Below, one piece after another: positions 10,275 to 24,973 of a stretch of 64,000 nt of DNA; positions within the stretch are counted from its first letter, which is position 1; every line of letters begins with the position of its first letter. This DNA comes from Mumia sp. ZJ1417. Its GTDB lineage: Bacteria; Actinomycetota; Actinomycetes; Propionibacteriales; Nocardioidaceae. The DNA lies in the NCBI RefSeq assembly GCF_014127285.1, contig NZ_CP059901.1, forward strand, positions 1,922,001 to 1,986,000, read 5' to 3'. The position numbers and the translations under genes were made by a program. Under the pieces are notes generated by a model, which ran no database searches, was not told where the DNA came from, and saw nothing but the letters and a program-made list of their open reading frames with translations.

Positions 10275-10303
10275 CCCAAGCCGTTCCCAAGCGATTCCCA
10301 AGC
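10275..10303 (+). promoter_or_regulatory. SARP-type operator: three CCCAAGC repeats every 11 bp
   Basis: The identical heptamer CCCAAGC occurs at 10275-10281, 10286-10292 and 10297-10303, so each repeat lies on the same face of the helix. Direct heptamers in 11-bp steps are the known binding pattern of SARP/AfsR-type activators, and a gene of that type lies 2.5 kb downstream at 12880-16236. The site is 52-80 bp before the MMPL gene. A second matching array lies at 16287-16315. Confidence 0.75.
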
Positions 10304-10354
10304 CGCCCGCGCAAGGCTCCTTTCCGTCCAGACGGATGACTAAGGAGCTTTGTG

Positions 10355-12535
10355 ATGTCCAGCATGTTGTACCGCCTCGGCCGAGCGGCCGCGGCACACC
10401 CGTGGCGCACGCTCAGCGCGTGGCTCGTCGTGCTCGTCGGGGTGCTCGCGTTCGCGTCGAGCGCCGGGGGCACGTTCCAGGACGACTGGGACGTCCCCGG
10501 GGCCGAGGGCCAGGCGGGGCTCGACGCCCTGCGCGCCCACATGCCGCAGGCGGGTGGAGCGAGTGCCCTCGTCGCCGTGCACGACCCTGACGGTGATGCT
10601 CTCGCGGAAGGTGACCTCAGCCGGCTCGCCGGCGAGCTCGCCGACGTCCCGCACGTCATAAAGGTGTCGCCGCCGCAGATGTCCGAGGACGCCGACACCG
10701 CGTTGCTGACGCTGCGCTATGACGTCCCGGTCACCGACAACGATGTGATCGGGGCGCTCGAGCCGCTCGAGGACGCGGTCGCCGCGGCCGACCTCGAAGG
10801 CGTCGAGGTCCAGTACGGCGGAGAGGTGCCGGGGTCCGCGATGGAGATGAGCGGGCGCGGCGAGATGATCGGCGTGGGCGTGGCCCTCGTCCTCCTCGTC
10901 CTGACGTTCGGCTCGGTCGTGGCAGCAGGCCTGCCGATCGTGGTGGCGCTGGTCGGGCTCGCGATCGGCAGTGCCGGCGTGACGCTCCTCGCGGCGACGA
11001 CCGACGTCAGCTCGACCGCGCCGACCGTCGCGACGATGGTGGGGCTGGGAGTCGGCATCGACTACGCGTTGCTGCTGGTCACGCGCTTCGTCGAACAGCT
11101 GCGCGGCGGCCAGTCGAAGGTCGAAGCCGCCGGGTACGCCGTCGCGACCGCGGGTCGCTCGGTGGTCTTCGCCGGGTTGACCGTGCTGGTCTCGTTGATG
11201 GGCCTCGGTCTCGCCGGACTGCCGATGTACTCGGCGTTCGGGGCCGCCACCGCGATCGCCGTCGCTGCGGTGATGGCGGCTTCGCTGACACTCGTCCCCG
11301 CGTTCTGCGGTCTGGCCGGCCACCGGCTCGTCGCCCGCAAGGACCGTGGACGCCCGTACGAGGACAGCGCCGACCAGGCCGCCCGTTCCACCCTCACCGG
11401 CCGCTGGGCGCGCCGGATCGGGGCGCGCCCGCTGCCGTGGGCGCTCGCCGCACTCGTCGTGCTCGTGGCGCTCGCCGCGCCGGCGCTGGGTATGCGGACG
11501 TTCCCGCAGGACGCCAGCGCCGACCCGACGTCGTTCACGACCAGGCAGGCGTACGACCTGGTCGCGGCCGAGTACGGCCACGGCGCCAACGGGCCGCTGA
11601 CGTTCGTCGCCGACACAGGCACCGTCGACCCGGCCCAGACCGAGCGGCTGCGCGAGGACCTCGCCGACGACCCGCGCATCGCGTCGGTCGGTCCCGCGGC
11701 CACGTCGTCGGACGGGGCGATCACGGTGTTCGACGCGCAGCCCGCCTTCGGGCCGCAGGACGAGCGCACGACCGACCTGATCACGTCGCTGCGGGCCGAC
11801 ACGCTGCCAGACGGCGTCCAGCTCACCGGCGGTACGGCGATCTTGACCGACATCTCGACGATGTTGTCCGAGCGCATCTGGCTCGTCGTCGGCTTCGTGG
11901 TGCTCGTGTCGATGCTGCTGCTGGCGATGATGTTCCGCTCGGTGGTCGTCCCGATCAAGGCGGCATTCATGAACCTGCTGTCGATCGGCGCCGCGTACGG
12001 GGTCGTGACCCTGGTGTTCCAGCACGGCTGGGGCTCGTCCCTGCTCGGGATGGACCATGCCGTCCCTGTCTCGAGCTGGGTTCCGATCTTGATGTTCGCG
12101 ATCCTGTTCGGGCTGTCGATGGACTACGAGGTGTTCTTGCTGTCGCGGATCCGCGAGGGCTGGCTCCGTACGGGCGACGCCCGCGGGTCCGTCGTCTCGG
12201 GCCTCGCGTCCAGCGCACGCGTGATCTCGAGCGCGGCGGCGATCATGGTGGCCGTCTTCCTCGGGTTCGCGACGGAGGGCGACGTCACGGTCAAGATGCT
12301 CGGGCTCGGGATGGCCGTCGCCGTCGCGCTCGACGCGACGCTCGTCCGGCTGGTCCTCGTCCCCGCGACGATGACGATGCTCGGCCACTGGAACTGGTGG
12401 CTTCCCGCGTGGATCGACCGTCGACTCCCGCACGTGCGGGCCGAGCTGGACGCGGACGCGGGCGCGGTGCCCGTGGCGGCTGGGCCGGTGGGGCCGCCCG
12501 GGAGCGCGGACGAGCATGAGGGGGTCTCGGCATGA
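10355..12535 (+). CDS. MMPL-family RND transporter
   Basis: 726 aa from the ATG at 10355, with AAGGAG (10342-10347) seven bases upstream; a GTG three bases earlier is less well spaced. It has the typical two-halves layout. An N-terminal membrane helix and an external domain are followed by a cluster of helices with GLGVGIDYALLLVTR, then a second external domain and second helix cluster with FGLSMDYEVFLLSRIREGW. Conserved Asp-Tyr pairs in both halves match proton-relay positions of MMPL exporters. Likely exports a lipid or a hydrophobic small molecule. Its promoter carries the SARP-like repeats, which suggests control by the BTAD regulator. Confidence 0.93.
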   Translation: MSSMLYRLGRAAAAHPWRTLSAWLVVLVGVLAFASSAGGTFQDDWDVPGAEGQAGLDALRAHMPQAGGASALVAVHDPDGDALAEGDLSRLAGELADVPHVIKVSPPQMSEDADTALLTLRYDVPVTDNDVIGALEPLEDAVAAADLEGVEVQYGGEVPGSAMEMSGRGEMIGVGVALVLLVLTFGSVVAAGLPIVVALVGLAIGSAGVTLLAATTDVSSTAPTVATMVGLGVGIDYALLLVTRFVEQLRGGQSKVEAAGYAVATAGRSVVFAGLTVLVSLMGLGLAGLPMYSAFGAATAIAVAAVMAASLTLVPAFCGLAGHRLVARKDRGRPYEDSADQAARSTLTGRWARRIGARPLPWALAALVVLVALAAPALGMRTFPQDASADPTSFTTRQAYDLVAAEYGHGANGPLTFVADTGTVDPAQTERLREDLADDPRIASVGPAATSSDGAITVFDAQPAFGPQDERTTDLITSLRADTLPDGVQLTGGTAILTDISTMLSERIWLVVGFVVLVSMLLLAMMFRSVVVPIKAAFMNLLSIGAAYGVVTLVFQHGWGSSLLGMDHAVPVSSWVPILMFAILFGLSMDYEVFLLSRIREGWLRTGDARGSVVSGLASSARVISSAAAIMVAVFLGFATEGDVTVKMLGLGMAVAVALDATLVRLVLVPATMTMLGHWNWWLPAWIDRRLPHVRAELDADAGAVPVAAGPVGPPGSADEHEGVSA

Positions 12536-12858
12536 GCACGACGACGCTCGACCGCGCGTACCAGCGTGAGGTGGCGGCGGTGATCGACGCCGCGGTGGGA
12601 ATCCCTGTCGAGGACCGGCGAGGCTGGGCACGGCTGCACCGCCGCTGGCACCGGCTCGCGGCCGAACGGCCACCTGTGCCGGACCCCGGCCTGGAGATGG
12701 CCGCCCTCGCGGAGACGATGACCGTGTGCGGTGACGGGCTCGCATGGATGGCCCACAGCGGAGACCGCGACGTCCGGGCCGCCGTGGTGGTCAGGCTCGC
12801 GCAGACCAAGCGGCAGCTCGATCGGCTGGTCGCGGACGCCGGCACCGAGCGGCGCTGA
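12532..12858 (+). CDS. Conserved small protein of unknown function
   Basis: 108 aa, starting with an ATG that overlaps the MMPL stop (ATGA at 12532-12535), so it is co-translated with the exporter. I do not recognise a domain. It is soluble, rich in Arg and Ala and mostly helical in appearance (AYQREVAAVIDAAVGIPVE, ALAETMTVCGDGLAWMAHSG). No signal peptide or membrane segment. The tight coupling suggests a role with the MMPL exporter, but the sequence gives no direct hint. Confidence 0.75.
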   Translation: MSTTTLDRAYQREVAAVIDAAVGIPVEDRRGWARLHRRWHRLAAERPPVPDPGLEMAALAETMTVCGDGLAWMAHSGDRDVRAAVVVRLAQTKRQLDRLVADAGTERR

Positions 12859-12879
12859 GCCGGGCGGGTTCGGGCCCGC

Positions 12880-15800
12880 TCAGAACCCGTGCAGATCCCG
12901 CTGACCTTGGAGCCACTCCTCGGCCAGCGGGATCCGCCATTCCCGCATCAGCCGTACGGCGTCGTCCGCGTGCAGCGTCGCGAGCTCGAGGTTGTCGTTC
13001 GCGGCCGCAGCCAGGGCGAGGAAGGCGTCCACCGGTCCCATCGCGATCGTCGACCCCGCGCTCAGGACGCCACCACGCAGCGGGGCGAGCCGCCCGTACG
13101 CCGCCGCAGCGAGGTCGCGCTCACCCAGCGCGAGGGCGACCTCCGCGCCGAAACCCCAGATGAGCGGCGCGATCCAGCTGTCGTCGTCGAGCGACGGCTG
13201 CGACTCCTCGTACATCGCCCGTGCCTCGTCAAGACGGCCGAGCCGGACGAGGATGCCGGTGGCCGCCATGTGGATCGGCACGCGAGCAGCGGCGACGAGC
13301 TGTCCGAGCCCGGCGTCTTCCTTCTCGTCGAGCCCGCCCCAGATCCCGAGCACCAGCATCAGGCCGCCGACTGCGTCGTGCTTGTGCGGGACGGCGATCG
13401 TGTCGATCACCGTCATGAGGTCGGCCATCGTCGTACGGGCGGCGTCGAGCTCGCCGCGCATCGCCAGCCAGGGGAGCCGCATGCAGTCGAGGAACCACTG
13501 GGCATACGTCAGCTGGAGCGCGTCCGCGAGTCCGCGCGCCTCTGCCAGGTCGCGTTCGAGGTCCTCGACGTTGCCGAGCTCGCTGTGCACGGCGGCCCGC
13601 TGCGCGAGCGCCATCGTCTCCGCGCGGGCATCGCCGAGGCGGCCGGCGAGCGCGACCGCCTCGTCGGCCAGCGCGAGACGCTGCTCGGCGGTCCAGGGGT
13701 GCCAGACCGCGAGGAACGCCGCGGAGCACATCTCCATGACCAGCGCGTCGTCGCCGAGGCGCCGTGCCATGTCGAGCCCCTCGGCGACCAGGAGCTGGCA
13801 CTCCGCCTCGGTGGCGGTGTAGTACAGCTCGTTGGCCAGGCCGATCAGCAGCGTGCAGCGCAGCGCCGAGTCGCCGGGCGGCAGCGCGGCCAGCGCCCGC
13901 CGCTGTGCTCCGACGACGGTCTCCTTCGTCTCTCCGGACGGGCGGCTCTGCCACAGCGCGCCGCGCGTCGTCGCGACCGCGGCACGGGCCAGGAGCTCGG
14001 GGTCGCCGATCTCGTCGGCGACCGCGATCGCCTCCTCGACGGCGTCGGTGAGCTCGTCCCAGCGTGCCGCCCAGCGAGCGGCGTCGGCCAGCGCGAGAAG
14101 CAGCTCGTACCGGTCGGCAGGGGTGGCGTCGGGGTCGAGGTCGATGCGGGTCAGCGCTAGGTGCAGCAGCTCGGCCCCCTCGTCGTGGCCGTGTCGCCGC
14201 TGCGCCGCGAGCGCTGCCCGGTATGCCGAGGTCCAGGCCTGTGCGGCGTGGTCCTCGCCCGCGTCCGCCCAGTGGCGCGCGATCTCCGCGACCCGGCTCG
14301 ACGCACGCCGGTCGTCGCCGAGCGCCTCGGCGATCCGGGCGTGCATCCGCTGACGCCGCGAGGGCGACAGCGTCGCGTACACCGCATCCCGGACGAGTGC
14401 ATGAGCGAACCGGAACCGGTCGTCCCCCTCGTCTCGGAGCATCCCTGCCGCCGTCGCCGGCTCGAGCTGGTCGAGGACCGCGAGATCGCTGAGCCCGGTG
14501 CTGCTCATCACGGTGGCGAGGTCGAAGCGCCTCCCGACGACCGCGGCGTGCCGAAGGACGTCGAGCGTGCTCTCGGGGACCGCCGACAGGCGGCGTCGTA
14601 CGACGTCGGCGACAGCGGTCGGGGGCTCGATCTCTACGTCGCCTCCGGCATCGCCCAGGAGACGGGCGTACTCGACGACGAAGAATGGGTTGCCCTCCGT
14701 ACGCTCGCGCATCGCCTCGGCCGCCGCGGGAGCGACGGGTTGTGCCGAGACCGCCGCGAGGACCTCGGCGGTCTCCGACGCCGACAGGCCACTCAGCGCC
14801 ACCGAGGCCGCGTGGCGACGGGCGAGGGCCTCGAGCGTCTCTGCGACCGGCCCGCTGGGTTCAGGGTGGGTCCGCATGGTGACGAGGAGGAGGAGGCGTG
14901 ACTCGTGGGCCACCGCGCAGAGGTGGCGCAGGACTCCCAGCGAGGATGGATCCGCCCACTGGAGGTCGTCCAGCGCGACGACGAGGGGGCGTTCGCTCGC
15001 GGCGTCGAGCACCTGGCGGCAGATGCGGTCCCACGCGGCGAAGCGCTCGCTGTCGGGGTCGGCGCCCATCGAGGTCGGCACGGCGCCACCGAGCCCGTCC
15101 AGGATCGACTCCCACGGCCACAGTGGGGGAGCACCGCTGTCTTGGGAGCAGCGGCCGACGAGGACGCGGGCGCCGCGCTCGCGCGCCCGGGCGAGCACCT
15201 CGGCGACCAGGCGGGACTTGCCGATCCCTGGCTCGCCGGCGACGCACGCGAACTGCGGCTCGCCTGCGTCGGCGGCCTCGAGCCGGTCGAGGAGCAGCGT
15301 GAGCTCGCGGTCGCGTCCGACCATCGGCCAGGCGGGGAGCCGGGGGAGTCGTGGCTGGGGGCGCGACCGAGGACGAGCCGGTACGGGGTCGGCCGGCGCG
15401 GGTGCCGGTGGCGGCGCCTCCTCCGACCACGTGATCGCGGGGTCCTGCCGCAGGATCGCCGTCTGCGCCTCTTGGACCTGCGTGCCGGGCTGGAGGCCGA
15501 GCTCGTCGTCGAGGGTGGTCGCCAGTACGCGGATCGACTCCAGCGCGTCGGCCTGACGCCCGCTGCGGGCCAGTGCGACCGCGCGCAGTGTCCACAGGCG
15601 CTCGCGGAGCGGGTGCTGGGCGGTGAGCGACTCCAGCTCGACGGCGACCGTGGCGTGCTCTCCCTGGGCCAGCCGTACGGTCGCGCGGTCCTCGAGCGCG
15701 AGGAGGCGCAGCTCGTCGAGGCGCGCCCGCTCGGCGACGGCCTGGGGGTGCTCGCCGAGCTCGTCGTACGGGCGCCCACGCCACAGGGCAGCCGCGGCGT

Positions 15801-16236
15801 CGAGGTCGTCCGCCGCCTGCTGGAGAACGTCCGACCCCGCCACCCCTGAGCCCGGGATCGCGTGCCGGACGAGCGGTCCGAGCCGGCGGTGCGCTCCCTG
15901 CATGAGGTCGCTCGCGGTCGCCGCGTCGATCGTCAGAGCATCCGTGTCGAGGACGTACCCGCCACCGGCCGTCCGCAACGGCGAGGCCGCGCCGGGCGGC
16001 AGCACCGTCGCCAGTGCCCGCCGCAGGCCCGACACGTACGCCTGCAGCGTGCCGTGCGCACCGCCGGGCGGGTGGTCGCCCCAGAGGTAGTCGATGAGCA
16101 CGTCGACGCTCTGGACGTTCCCGGCGCCGAGCGCAAGGGTCGCGAGCAGGACGCGGTGCTTGCGCGTGCCGAGCGCGACCGGCGGTGATGCCTGCTCGCC
16201 GTGCATCTCGACCGGTCCGAGAACAGCGAGCCACAT
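12880..16236 (-). CDS. SARP/AfsR-type regulator: BTAD domain plus AAA-type ATPase
   Basis: 1118 aa. Residues about 1-95 form an OmpR-like winged helix (ALGTRKHRVLLATLALGAG, DYLWGDHPPGGA), 100-260 a bacterial transcriptional activation domain with TPR-like helices, and 305-460 a STAND-type ATPase with Walker A GEPGIGKS (334-341) and Walker B LVVALDDLQ (418-426). The remainder is helical repeats, and there is no LuxR helix-turn-helix at the C terminus. Such proteins act as activators at direct heptamer repeats. Its own promoter region and the promoter of the MMPL operon both contain such repeats. It is convergent with the MMPL operon and divergent from the FAD oxidoreductase. The signal it senses is unknown. 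Confidence 0.92.
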   Translation of the reverse strand: MWLAVLGPVEMHGEQASPPVALGTRKHRVLLATLALGAGNVQSVDVLIDYLWGDHPPGGAHGTLQAYVSGLRRALATVLPPGAASPLRTAGGGYVLDTDALTIDAATASDLMQGAHRRLGPLVRHAIPGSGVAGSDVLQQAADDLDAAAALWRGRPYDELGEHPQAVAERARLDELRLLALEDRATVRLAQGEHATVAVELESLTAQHPLRERLWTLRAVALARSGRQADALESIRVLATTLDDELGLQPGTQVQEAQTAILRQDPAITWSEEAPPPAPAPADPVPARPRSRPQPRLPRLPAWPMVGRDRELTLLLDRLEAADAGEPQFACVAGEPGIGKSRLVAEVLARARERGARVLVGRCSQDSGAPPLWPWESILDGLGGAVPTSMGADPDSERFAAWDRICRQVLDAASERPLVVALDDLQWADPSSLGVLRHLCAVAHESRLLLLVTMRTHPEPSGPVAETLEALARRHAASVALSGLSASETAEVLAAVSAQPVAPAAAEAMRERTEGNPFFVVEYARLLGDAGGDVEIEPPTAVADVVRRRLSAVPESTLDVLRHAAVVGRRFDLATVMSSTGLSDLAVLDQLEPATAAGMLRDEGDDRFRFAHALVRDAVYATLSPSRRQRMHARIAEALGDDRRASSRVAEIARHWADAGEDHAAQAWTSAYRAALAAQRRHGHDEGAELLHLALTRIDLDPDATPADRYELLLALADAARWAARWDELTDAVEEAIAVADEIGDPELLARAAVATTRGALWQSRPSGETKETVVGAQRRALAALPPGDSALRCTLLIGLANELYYTATEAECQLLVAEGLDMARRLGDDALVMEMCSAAFLAVWHPWTAEQRLALADEAVALAGRLGDARAETMALAQRAAVHSELGNVEDLERDLAEARGLADALQLTYAQWFLDCMRLPWLAMRGELDAARTTMADLMTVIDTIAVPHKHDAVGGLMLVLGIWGGLDEKEDAGLGQLVAAARVPIHMAATGILVRLGRLDEARAMYEESQPSLDDDSWIAPLIWGFGAEVALALGERDLAAAAYGRLAPLRGGVLSAGSTIAMGPVDAFLALAAAANDNLELATLHADDAVRLMREWRIPLAEEWLQGQRDLHGF

Positions 16237-16243
16237 GGCTCAG

Positions 16244-16249
16244 AGCATA
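16244..16249 (-). promoter_or_regulatory. -10 box of the BTAD regulator, probably leaderless
   Basis: TATGCT on the minus strand ends 7 bases before the ATG at 16236, which places the transcription start at the start codon. No convincing -35 hexamer exists 16-18 bp upstream. This is consistent with a promoter that needs an activator, perhaps the protein itself through the nearby repeats. Confidence 0.5.
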
Positions 16250-16286
16250 GGCGCGCGACCGTGCCAGGACGGGGGTTTTCCCGTAC

Positions 16287-16315
16287 CCCAAGCGAACTCC
16301 AAGGACTCTGCAAGC
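16287..16315 (+). promoter_or_regulatory. SARP-type operator: three heptamers every 11 bp
   Basis: CCCAAGC (16287-16293), TCCAAGG (16298-16304) and TGCAAGC (16309-16315) lie in exact 11-bp steps, sharing the core CAAG. The array matches the one at 10275-10303 in motif, orientation and spacing. It lies between the BTAD regulator and the FAD oxidoreductase and points toward the latter, 73 bp before its start. Confidence 0.75.
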
Positions 16316-16388
16316 GGCTTCCGTGACGGTGTGACGGTCACAGCAGAAGGCCGTCGCGAACCAGCGGCCACGGAGCAAGGAAGCATCG

Positions 16389-17786
16389 ATGAGTACAACC
16401 ACCGACACGATCGGGATCCGACCGGGTCACCCCACCGAAGTCGACGACGACGTCGACTTCGATGCGCTGCGGGTGCAGCTCGGCGAGCGTCTCGTCACCC
16501 CCGGCGACCCCGGGTGGGACGAGATCAGCCGACCGTGGAACCTCGCGATCGATCAGACACCCGCTGCCGTGGTCTTCGCGCACAGCCCGAGAGACGTCGC
16601 GGCCGCGGTCCGCTTCGGCCGGGCGAACGGCCTCGCTGTCGCGCCGCAGGCCGGCGGTCACGGAGCGACCTCCCGGCTCGCCGGGAGCATCGTCGTCCGC
16701 AGCAGCGGCCTGACCGACCTCGCGATCGACCCGGTCGCCCGGATCGCTCGCGTCGGTGCCGGGGTGCGCTGGGGAGCGCTCCAGGCCAAGCTCGACGGCA
16801 CCGGCCTGACCGGCATGATCGGCTCCAACCCAGACGTCTCGGTCGTCGGCTACACGCTCCAGGGCGGCTACTCGTGGTTCACCCGCGCGTTCGGCATGGG
16901 CTCGGACTCGCTGCGTGCCGCGGAGGTCGTCGATGCCCAGGGCGAGGTGCGCTGGGTCGACGACACCTCCGATCCCGAGCTGATGTGGGGGCTGCGCGGG
17001 GGCGGCGGAAACCTCGCGTACGTGACGGCCGTCGAGATCGATCTGCACCCGGCACCGGAGATCGCGGGCGGGCGGCTGATGTTCCCGTTCGTCGCGGCCC
17101 GCGCGGTGCTCGACGCCTACGTGGACGCCACGGCGTCGGCGCCGCCTTCGGTGTCGCTCTGGGCGTCGATCGTCCACCTGCCGGACGTGTCGTTCATCCC
17201 GGAGGAGGTGCGGGGGCAGTCGTTCGTCGTGATCGAGGGAGCCACGACGGACGGTCTCGAGCTCCTCAAGTCCGCACTGGCGCCCGTACGCGCTGCGGGG
17301 CCGGTCGTCTACGACACCGTGCGTGTCCGTACGGCCTCCGAGGTCGGGGACATCTGCGAAGAGCCCGTCGACCCGATGCCGGCCCTGCACTGCGCACGGC
17401 CGCTCGGCGATCTCACGCCGCAGACCGTCGAAGCCCTGCTGGCGGTCTCGGGGACTCCCGGCGTCATGCAGATCCAGGTCCGGCACGTGGGAGCCGTACG
17501 CCCGGGCCACCGCCCGGGGTTCGTCACCGCGGTGCGGTCGGAGTTCCTGGTGACGTCGCTCGCGCTCGTACCGGACCCGTCGATGGAGCCGATGATCGTC
17601 AAGGGCTTCGAGACGGTGTCCGAGGCACTGCTGCCGTGGACCGAGGGGGCCGTCGGGTCGACACTGCTCGCCCCGTGGGACTCCTTGGACCGCTCCGCCT
17701 CGTACGGCGAGCTCGAACGCCTGCGTGAGCTCGTCGCACGTGAGGACCCGACCGGCGTGTTCCGCGCGGCGACGGGTCTGTCCTGA
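16389..17786 (+). CDS. FAD-dependent oxidoreductase (berberine-bridge-like)
   Basis: 465 aa. An N-terminal FAD-binding type 4 (PCMH) domain covers about residues 55-225: GGHGAT at 89-94 has the histidine (His91) that usually carries covalent FAD, and VVGYTLQGGYSWFTRAFGMG forms the flavin loop. The cysteine used for a second covalent link in berberine-bridge enzymes is absent at the expected place (GSNPDVSVVG), so single attachment is likely. The C-terminal end DPTGVFRAATG is a reduced version of the BBE motif. These enzymes oxidise sugars or secondary metabolites. A SARP-like operator lies upstream, linking it to the BTAD regulator and MMPL exporter. Confidence 0.87.
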   Translation: MSTTTDTIGIRPGHPTEVDDDVDFDALRVQLGERLVTPGDPGWDEISRPWNLAIDQTPAAVVFAHSPRDVAAAVRFGRANGLAVAPQAGGHGATSRLAGSIVVRSSGLTDLAIDPVARIARVGAGVRWGALQAKLDGTGLTGMIGSNPDVSVVGYTLQGGYSWFTRAFGMGSDSLRAAEVVDAQGEVRWVDDTSDPELMWGLRGGGGNLAYVTAVEIDLHPAPEIAGGRLMFPFVAARAVLDAYVDATASAPPSVSLWASIVHLPDVSFIPEEVRGQSFVVIEGATTDGLELLKSALAPVRAAGPVVYDTVRVRTASEVGDICEEPVDPMPALHCARPLGDLTPQTVEALLAVSGTPGVMQIQVRHVGAVRPGHRPGFVTAVRSEFLVTSLALVPDPSMEPMIVKGFETVSEALLPWTEGAVGSTLLAPWDSLDRSASYGELERLRELVAREDPTGVFRAATGLS

Positions 17787-19508: not shown

Positions 19509-19741
19509 TGGGGGTCGCGCCTTGATCTGATGCCCGTGGGGGTTGAGGGTTTTGTGTGTCTGATGTTTGAGAACTCAACAGTGTGCCAAAAGTCGACGAG
19601 ATAATCAGTAGTAAGGCCTCGGACTTTTGCTTCTCTTCGGAGGGGTGAGTGTTTGGGGTTGATTCCGTGACAATTATTTGTCAGCAAATAGTTAGTCCGG
19701 GTCATAACGGAAGTTGTTGCCTAGCCTTTGGTTGGGTTTTC

Positions 19742-24789
<5,048 letters not shown>

Positions 24790-24845
24790 GGGATCACAAC
24801 CCATTACAACAACAGAACAGAGTTGTTGGTTGTGTAATCCTGTAG

Positions 24846-24964
24846 GGTTACGGCGGCCATGGCGAAGGGGAAACACCCGGCAACATTCCGAACCCGGAAG
24901 TTAAGCCCTTCAGCGCCGATGGTACTGCACGGGAGACTGTGTGGGAGAGTAGGACGCCGCCGGA
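24846..24964 (+). rRNA. rrf: 5S ribosomal RNA
   Basis: About 119 nt. The 5' TTACGGCGGC pairs with the 3' GCCGCCGGA, and the internal CCGAACCCGGAAGTTAAG loop is conserved. It follows the 23S gene by about 95 bp and directly precedes the operon terminator. Confidence 0.93.
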
Positions 24965-24973
24965 CAATATTTA

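Follow-up and report, generated by a model that had tools for sequence, protein, structure and literature searches.

The window, a 64,000-nucleotide stretch of Mumia sp. ZJ1417 (contig NZ_CP059901.1, positions 1,922,001 to 1,986,000), contains a regulator gene flanked by two arrays of directly repeated heptamers, each of which faces a gene of its own. Array 1 (10275..10303, plus strand) comprises three copies of CCCAAGC (10275-10281, 10286-10292, and 10297-10303) 5' of the gene for an MMPL family (RND) transporter of 726 amino acids (10355..12535, plus strand, ATG at 10355; Pfam MMPL, 1.2e-72). The end of this gene is overlapped by a gene for a 108-amino-acid protein (12532..12858, plus strand), a distant relative of hemerythrin-like proteins. 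The regulator, a BTAD protein of 1118 amino acids (12880..16236, minus strand), carries an OmpR-type helix-turn-helix (HTH), BTAD, an AAA_16 ATPase, and a long C-terminal part without a Pfam match. Array 2 (16287..16315, plus strand) reads CCCAAGC (16287-16293), TCCAAGG (16298-16304), and TGCAAGC (16309-16315), 5' of the gene for an FAD-linked oxidoreductase of 465 amino acids (16389..17786, plus strand, ATG at 16389; Pfam FAD_binding_4, 7.4e-25). Judging from sequence comparisons, we consider it very probable that the arrays are SARP-type operator-promoters through which the neighboring regulator would activate the MMPL operon and the FAD gene.

From left to right, the locus runs through sugar-type ABC genes, array 1, the MMPL gene, the 108-amino-acid gene, the regulator gene, array 2, the FAD gene, the tyrosyl-tRNA synthetase gene, and an rRNA operon. 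The regulator and MMPL genes are convergent, whereas the regulator and FAD genes diverge from an intergenic region that contains array 2, ~50 bp from the regulator start codon. Both arrays lie on the plus strand, are oriented toward their genes, and have repeat steps of exactly 11 bp, as in the direct repeats of SARP operators. An earlier sequence-only reading of this DNA had described the array coordinates, the 11-bp steps, the common orientation, and the placement of the regulator gene between the arrays, and the sequence bears all of this out. The 11-bp steps also match the published SARP operators of AfsR and PimR. The predicted MMPL operon comprises the 108-amino-acid gene as well, beyond the exporter alone that the reading had named.

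The exact triplet CAAGN7CAAGN7CAAG was absent from all 400 dinucleotide shuffles of the window. A search of the whole genome (4,190,080 bp) for three CAAG at 11-bp steps, a check proposed in advance, returned two exact matches, which are these two arrays, compared to one match of the reversed control. Single CCCAAGC words are at chance level: the window holds eight, a number matched by 19 of 100 shuffles. When up to two mismatches were allowed and a -10 element was required, the genome yielded the two exact sites and three sites with two mismatches, versus four control matches, and a wider regulon in this genome was rejected on these counts. Extra sites of the CCAAG form were rejected in the same way (two extra versus five control matches). 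The “closed” regulon of the sequence-only reading thus stands for this motif in this genome, with two exact sites and looser matches at the control level.

When array-bearing promoters are compared side by side, they share the sequence ANNNT at a distance of exactly 11 nt from the third CAAG, downstream of it. The fixed spacing assigns a predicted -10 of AAGGCT to array 1 (10313..10318, plus strand; predicted start ~10325) and of GACGGT to array 2 (16325..16330, plus strand; predicted start ~16337). The choice of the ten exact Mumia arrays did not depend on the -10, although these arrays are mutually orthologous; in all ten, ANNNT stands at offset 11 and never at offsets 6-10 or 12-17. Likewise, all six exact arrays of the regulator-homologue loci (L035-L110) have it at offset 11 and at no other offset from 6 to 17. 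A mixed set of 27 distinct non-Mumia sites, chance sites included, had ANNNT at offset 11 in six cases, offset 8 in four, and offset 10 in two. With the A of ANNNT taken as position -11, the second CAAG spans -37 to -34 and the third -26 to -23. These positions fall inside the two 11-bp afs repeats of AfsR, which PMC10936776 places at -40 to -30 and -29 to -19, with CACTGT as the -10; the first CAAG is an extra upstream repeat. The same paper gives the rule that the last repeat of a SARP operator lies ~8 bp from the -10, and SARP sites generally overlap the -35 according to a review (PMC10972967). In our arrays, the spacing from the heptamer, framed as CCCAAGC, to the ANNNT hexamer is 9 bp (8 bp when the heptamer frame is shifted by one base toward the -10), and the repeats overlap the -35 position.

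The composite pattern, three CAAG at 11-bp steps and then ANNNT 11 nt on, was found at 135 places in 75 of the 341 genomes of the family (10 in Mumia and 125 elsewhere), versus a single match of the reversed pattern. A spacer-shifted control (spacers 6 and 8) gave no match in the family, and its reverse gave two. A class-wide draw, which includes genomes of the family, contained the composite in 64 of 394 genomes, with five reversed-control matches. The promoter class is therefore general in the family and the class, not private to the Mumia locus. These results also bear on the idea that the arrays are chance occurrences or simple repeats. The chance-level frequency of single CCCAAGC words and the one genomic match of the reversed triplet, sought with no -10 requirement, could be cited for it; it was rejected on the shuffles, the genome count, the reversed and spacer-shifted controls, and the fixed -10 offset, and its probability is negligible.

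Two side observations came from these scans. One genome (G135) carries ten composite sites (L166-L175) before hemerythrin-like, FAD, MMPL, and other genes, which suggests an expanded SARP-box network. Variant boxes were also seen, with CCAG in three of the repeats at L276:1407-1448 and in two of them at L308:801-842, both keeping the 11-bp geometry and the -10. The regulators L306 and L308, from CCAG-box genomes, have Gly at a helix position that is mostly Ala or Ser in CAAG-linked regulators, with L222 (CAAG, Gly) as a counter-example.

Within the genus, regulators on three named Mumia contigs share 89%, 82%, and 69% identity with the one described here. The MMPL array was present at the orthologous place in all six Mumia genomes searched, exactly in five and with one mismatch in the sixth (G003). 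The FAD array was exact at the orthologous place in five of the six, those that keep the FAD gene here. The remaining genome (G002, L033) retains the MMPL array and has neither an FAD array nor an FAD gene between the regulator and tyrosyl-tRNA synthetase genes, an absence that refers to this locus only. The MMPL side was tested at 30 loci out of a longer match list, with 39 genomes searched. Among the nine loci with at least 56% identity, seven had the array with zero or one mismatch, one (G016) had three CCAG repeats in the same geometry, and one (G049) had no array. The 21 loci at no more than 47% identity showed five to seven mismatches, the level of the opposite-strand control; some of the distant MMPL alignments start inside the gene, and the upstream region taken may miss the promoter.

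We classified the genes behind 127 sites, namely the 125 non-Mumia sites and the two of the window, using a simple open reading frame (ORF) caller whose starts are wrong in places, for example in most of cluster 4 and at L121 in the FAD cluster. The largest groups were FAD oxidoreductases (22), MMPL transporters (20), hemerythrin-like proteins (17), and secreted RTX-repeat proteins (12), where the labels were checked with Pfam on three proteins for hemerythrin and one for RTX. The other sites preceded a cluster with doubtful starts (11), a 159-amino-acid secreted protein (7), another secreted group (5), three pairs (6), and 27 singletons. Flanks were taken for all 125 non-Mumia sites, mostly 11 kb long and some cut by contig ends. 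A SARP-type gene lay in the flank of 70 of them, or 62 by SARP-domain profile alone. The figure of 70 adds tblastn matches to the whole regulator, among which there may be a gene related only to the ATPase half, and is a raw count without formal background (the Mumia genome has three BTAD genes in 4.19 Mb). Such a gene accompanied 14/19 MMPL, 17/21 FAD, and 15/17 hemerythrin-like sites, 7/7 of the 159-amino-acid group, and 8/11 of the doubtful cluster; it was rarer elsewhere (2/12 RTX, 1/5 of the other secreted group, and 6/33 of the rest).

The arrangement of the Mumia locus recurs as well. Of the 19 non-Mumia MMPL sites, 12 have a convergent pair of regulator and MMPL genes with the array before the MMPL gene; two sites are otherwise arranged, and five have no regulator in the flank. 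In eight of the 12 convergent pairs, an ORF between the regulator and MMPL genes has a hemerythrin-like match, some of these being overlong ORFs that run into the MMPL gene. A divergent regulator-FAD gap with an array facing the FAD gene was found in L189, L222, L240, and L257 and in two Gordonia loci (L038 and L040); in L243 and L260, the array of such a gap has one mismatch. In a second SARP group (L186, L194, L206, L208, L216, L229, and L254), which has the helix QAYVSHLRR in the members read, the array precedes the gene of the regulator-adjacent 159-amino-acid secreted protein in 7/7 loci; L186, L194, L206, L208, and L216 also have an exact array before an FAD oxidoreductase.

A start codon coincides with the predicted +1, exactly 7 nt past the T of the -10, in 28 of the 127 sites (25 ATG and 3 GTG); several of these sites are orthologues, and not all are independent. 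Seven further sites have an ATG at 8 nt. Genes that start at the predicted +1 would be leaderless, and these start codons support the -10 assignment independently. As a separate observation, twelve similar secreted proteins, one of which was checked and has RTX repeats, are encoded directly behind a composite promoter (L122, L195, L201, L203, L215, L221, L224, L227, L246, L250, L252, and L264), and ten of the twelve genes have their start codon exactly 7 nt past the -10 T, as leaderless genes would have.

The sequence-only reading proposed an exporter-oxidase regulon whose operators, the two arrays, belong to the regulator encoded between them. These comparisons support it: arrays are kept throughout the genus, genes of the same families have the same arrays in other genera, and the -10 stands at one fixed distance. 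We infer binding, activation rather than repression, a trigger, and a chemical role for the module, as well as the sensor function and the made or detoxified molecule that the reading had suggested. The regulator would bind side by side on the three repeats, one protomer per 11-bp repeat, so that the second repeat occupies the -35 position and the third falls within the spacer that precedes the -10. Once bound, it would bring RNA polymerase to two weak promoters, those of the MMPL operon and the FAD gene, and its AAA_16/C-terminal half is probably a switch that answers a ligand or the state of the cell. Exporter and flavin oxidase would then be made together, most likely to handle a small molecule.

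Two repeats over the -35 and spacer positions could block RNA polymerase, with the regulator repressing both promoters until an inducer arrives. However, AfsR activates from two repeats of this register, with sigma region 4 resting on the SARP dimer in place of a -35 (PMC10936776). Moreover, by reading the sequence, the -10 boxes agree with the consensus at ANNNT only, and repeat letters occupy the -35 positions, as expected for activator-dependent promoters. We therefore regard repression as quite improbable.

Several observations weigh against a regulon of this regulator. Of 13 regulator loci tested, six had an exact composite, one had it with one mismatch, one with two, and five had none. 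Three of the array-less loci (G002, the G016 copy on C15, and G023) have an array or variant before their MMPL partner; at the two G049 regulator loci no array was found. No exact CAAG triplet was present at 71 of 76 non-Mumia regulator-homologue loci (L035-L110), and most relatives thus lack the box. The array in the regulator-FAD gap of G009 (L117) faces the regulator, and a G replaces the A of its -10. The relatives of the FAD enzyme include biosynthetic enzymes, with matches to EncM and, below the cut-off, BagG/FevA2. A SARP-type gene was missing from the taken flank, in some cases cut by a contig end, at 55 of the 125 non-Mumia sites, so other SARPs may act in trans. Finally, the Mumia genome has two other BTAD genes (positions 3314868 and 1790639).

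The last two points would suit a different account, in which the arrays are real SARP operators bound by one of these other two BTAD proteins and the neighboring regulator controls something else. Nevertheless, the only exact arrays of the genome flank this regulator, regulator-MMPL and regulator-FAD neighborhoods with arrays recur in other genera, and the surroundings taken of the other two BTAD genes (L114 and L125) have no exact array. Binding by another BTAD protein is accordingly improbable.

For the FAD enzyme, the best solved relative is mitomycin radical oxidase (9r43, E 1.4e-48, residues 36-460), yet a distant one, and EncM follows at ~1e-36. Mitomycin radical oxidase presumably gives self-resistance, and we take His91, in the GGHG of the FAD enzyme, to be a candidate covalent-FAD residue. 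The pairing of oxidase and exporter suggests small-molecule handling. The 108-amino-acid protein had no Pfam match but resembled the module's hemerythrin-like proteins, with a best E-value of 7.9e-11 in a set of 19 proteins. A hemerythrin-like profile, searched against the ORFs of the window and six Mumia loci, ranked it at 1.2e-5, with two Mumia homologues next; both E-values are generous because the search databases are small. The protein is shorter, and it aligns in two pieces, leaving out an intervening segment in which, by our reading, the paired-histidine HHE part would be expected. By its sequence, it may be a reduced form of the hemerythrin-like module member.

The matches to EncM and BagG/FevA2 invite the alternative that the module is left over from a natural-product pathway or is a satellite of one, with the FAD enzyme tailoring and the MMPL protein exporting a compound made in the cell; moreover, the SARPs listed in a review serve biosynthetic clusters (PMC10972967). 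Against this, the neighbors tested serve housekeeping or sugar uptake (argininosuccinate synthase, tyrosyl-tRNA synthetase, a ROK regulator, ABC parts, and the rRNA operon). No family of the polyketide synthase or nonribosomal peptide synthetase type was found among 17 ORFs scanned around the locus, a part of the window's genes, three of which had no Pfam match (one of these antisense). On these 17 ORFs, the regulator does not lie inside a biosynthetic gene cluster, and the earlier remark that no classical biosynthetic genes are nearby agrees with the scan. In other genomes, too, the recurring downstream clusters that were identified are not core biosynthetic genes, a statement that excludes the 27 singletons. 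A natural-product role is thus unlikely, though it keeps some weight. Beside the locus, a complete rRNA operon (16S, 23S, and 5S; 19740-24965) lies directly downstream of the tyrosyl-tRNA synthetase gene.

SARP-controlled operators of three heptamers at 11-bp steps are known; what is new is the exporter-oxidase-hemerythrin module, a small and free-standing unit conserved in soil actinobacteria, without a biosynthetic family among the tested neighbors. A literature search, whose coverage mostly excluded subscription papers, found no SARP regulon with MMPL and a flavin oxidase, or with hemerythrin, among the matches listed. In the literature examined, SARPs are switches of antibiotic clusters (PMC5930380, PMC10936776, PMC10972967). 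We tentatively raise a broader view, to which we give a little under an even chance: SARPs would have a widespread role beyond antibiotic clusters, in a chemical-defense regulon that combines MMPL efflux with flavin oxidation and hemerythrin-like proteins and is marked by the CAAG/ANNNT promoter code across Nocardioidaceae genera, its oxidase part also in the two Gordonia loci. If true, the code would let the regulons of orphan large SARPs be read from sequence, leaderless-looking genes included, and the signature would predict targets of uncharacterized SARPs in many genomes. To our knowledge, what orphan SARPs sense is largely open. Since the module is compact and recurs, its promoter signature is precise, and its targets are named, binding, trigger, and substrate are directly testable.

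The regulator has the architecture of a large SARP. An N-terminal OmpR-type HTH followed by BTAD (Trans_reg_C 2.1e-6 and BTAD 1.3e-31, both above the cut-off) aligns to AfsR and EmbR, the closest solved chains, and a central STAND/AAA nucleotide-binding domain follows (AAA_16 3.4e-25). Its translation contains GEPGIGKS and LVVALDDLQWAD, which we take to be nucleotide-binding motifs. No TPR model was among its Pfam matches at 0.001, and the second piece of the AfsR alignment is weak (1.4 bits). Identity with AfsR itself was rejected, since NCBIfam NF053617 scored 136.8 bits versus an equivalog cut-off of 1430; the regulator is a relative of AfsR. At the positions of AfsR R87/T88, the recognition helix of array-linked SARPs has Q/H (80/83) and then A/S (79/83), versus 32/53 and 15/53 in other SARPs; these counts include duplicates, are uncorrected for ancestry, and were not used as evidence.

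Among known systems, AfsR, the large SARP of Streptomyces coelicolor, shares the N-terminal OmpR-type HTH and BTAD and the central nucleotide-binding domain. Its afs box, as given in PMC10936776, likewise has 11-bp direct repeats over the -35 and the spacer, in the register of our second and third repeats, and its weak -10, CACTGT, fits ANNNT. The systems differ in that AfsR has two afs repeats and the target afsS, whereas the Mumia arrays have three CAAG repeats before an exporter and an oxidase. In the alignment, AfsR R92 and T88, residues whose roles are described in that paper, pair with Gly and Ala in the helix of the Mumia regulator. PimR, a SARP-LAL, resembles the Mumia case in its three heptamers with 4-nt spacers and in joining a SARP to a LAL-like ATPase without a LuxR HTH; according to PMC5930380, however, PimR acts on a cluster regulator through a triplet placed upstream of the -35, whereas the Mumia repeats overlap the -35 position. 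The small SARPs DnrI and ActII-ORF4 also have three heptameric repeats, but unlike the Mumia regulator they are small proteins that serve biosynthetic clusters. Lastly, mycobacterial EmbR is alike in its N-terminal domains by sequence (2fez, E 3.6e-28 over residues 4-267), and differs in that its solved chain of 388 residues has no match to the ATPase half of the Mumia regulator.

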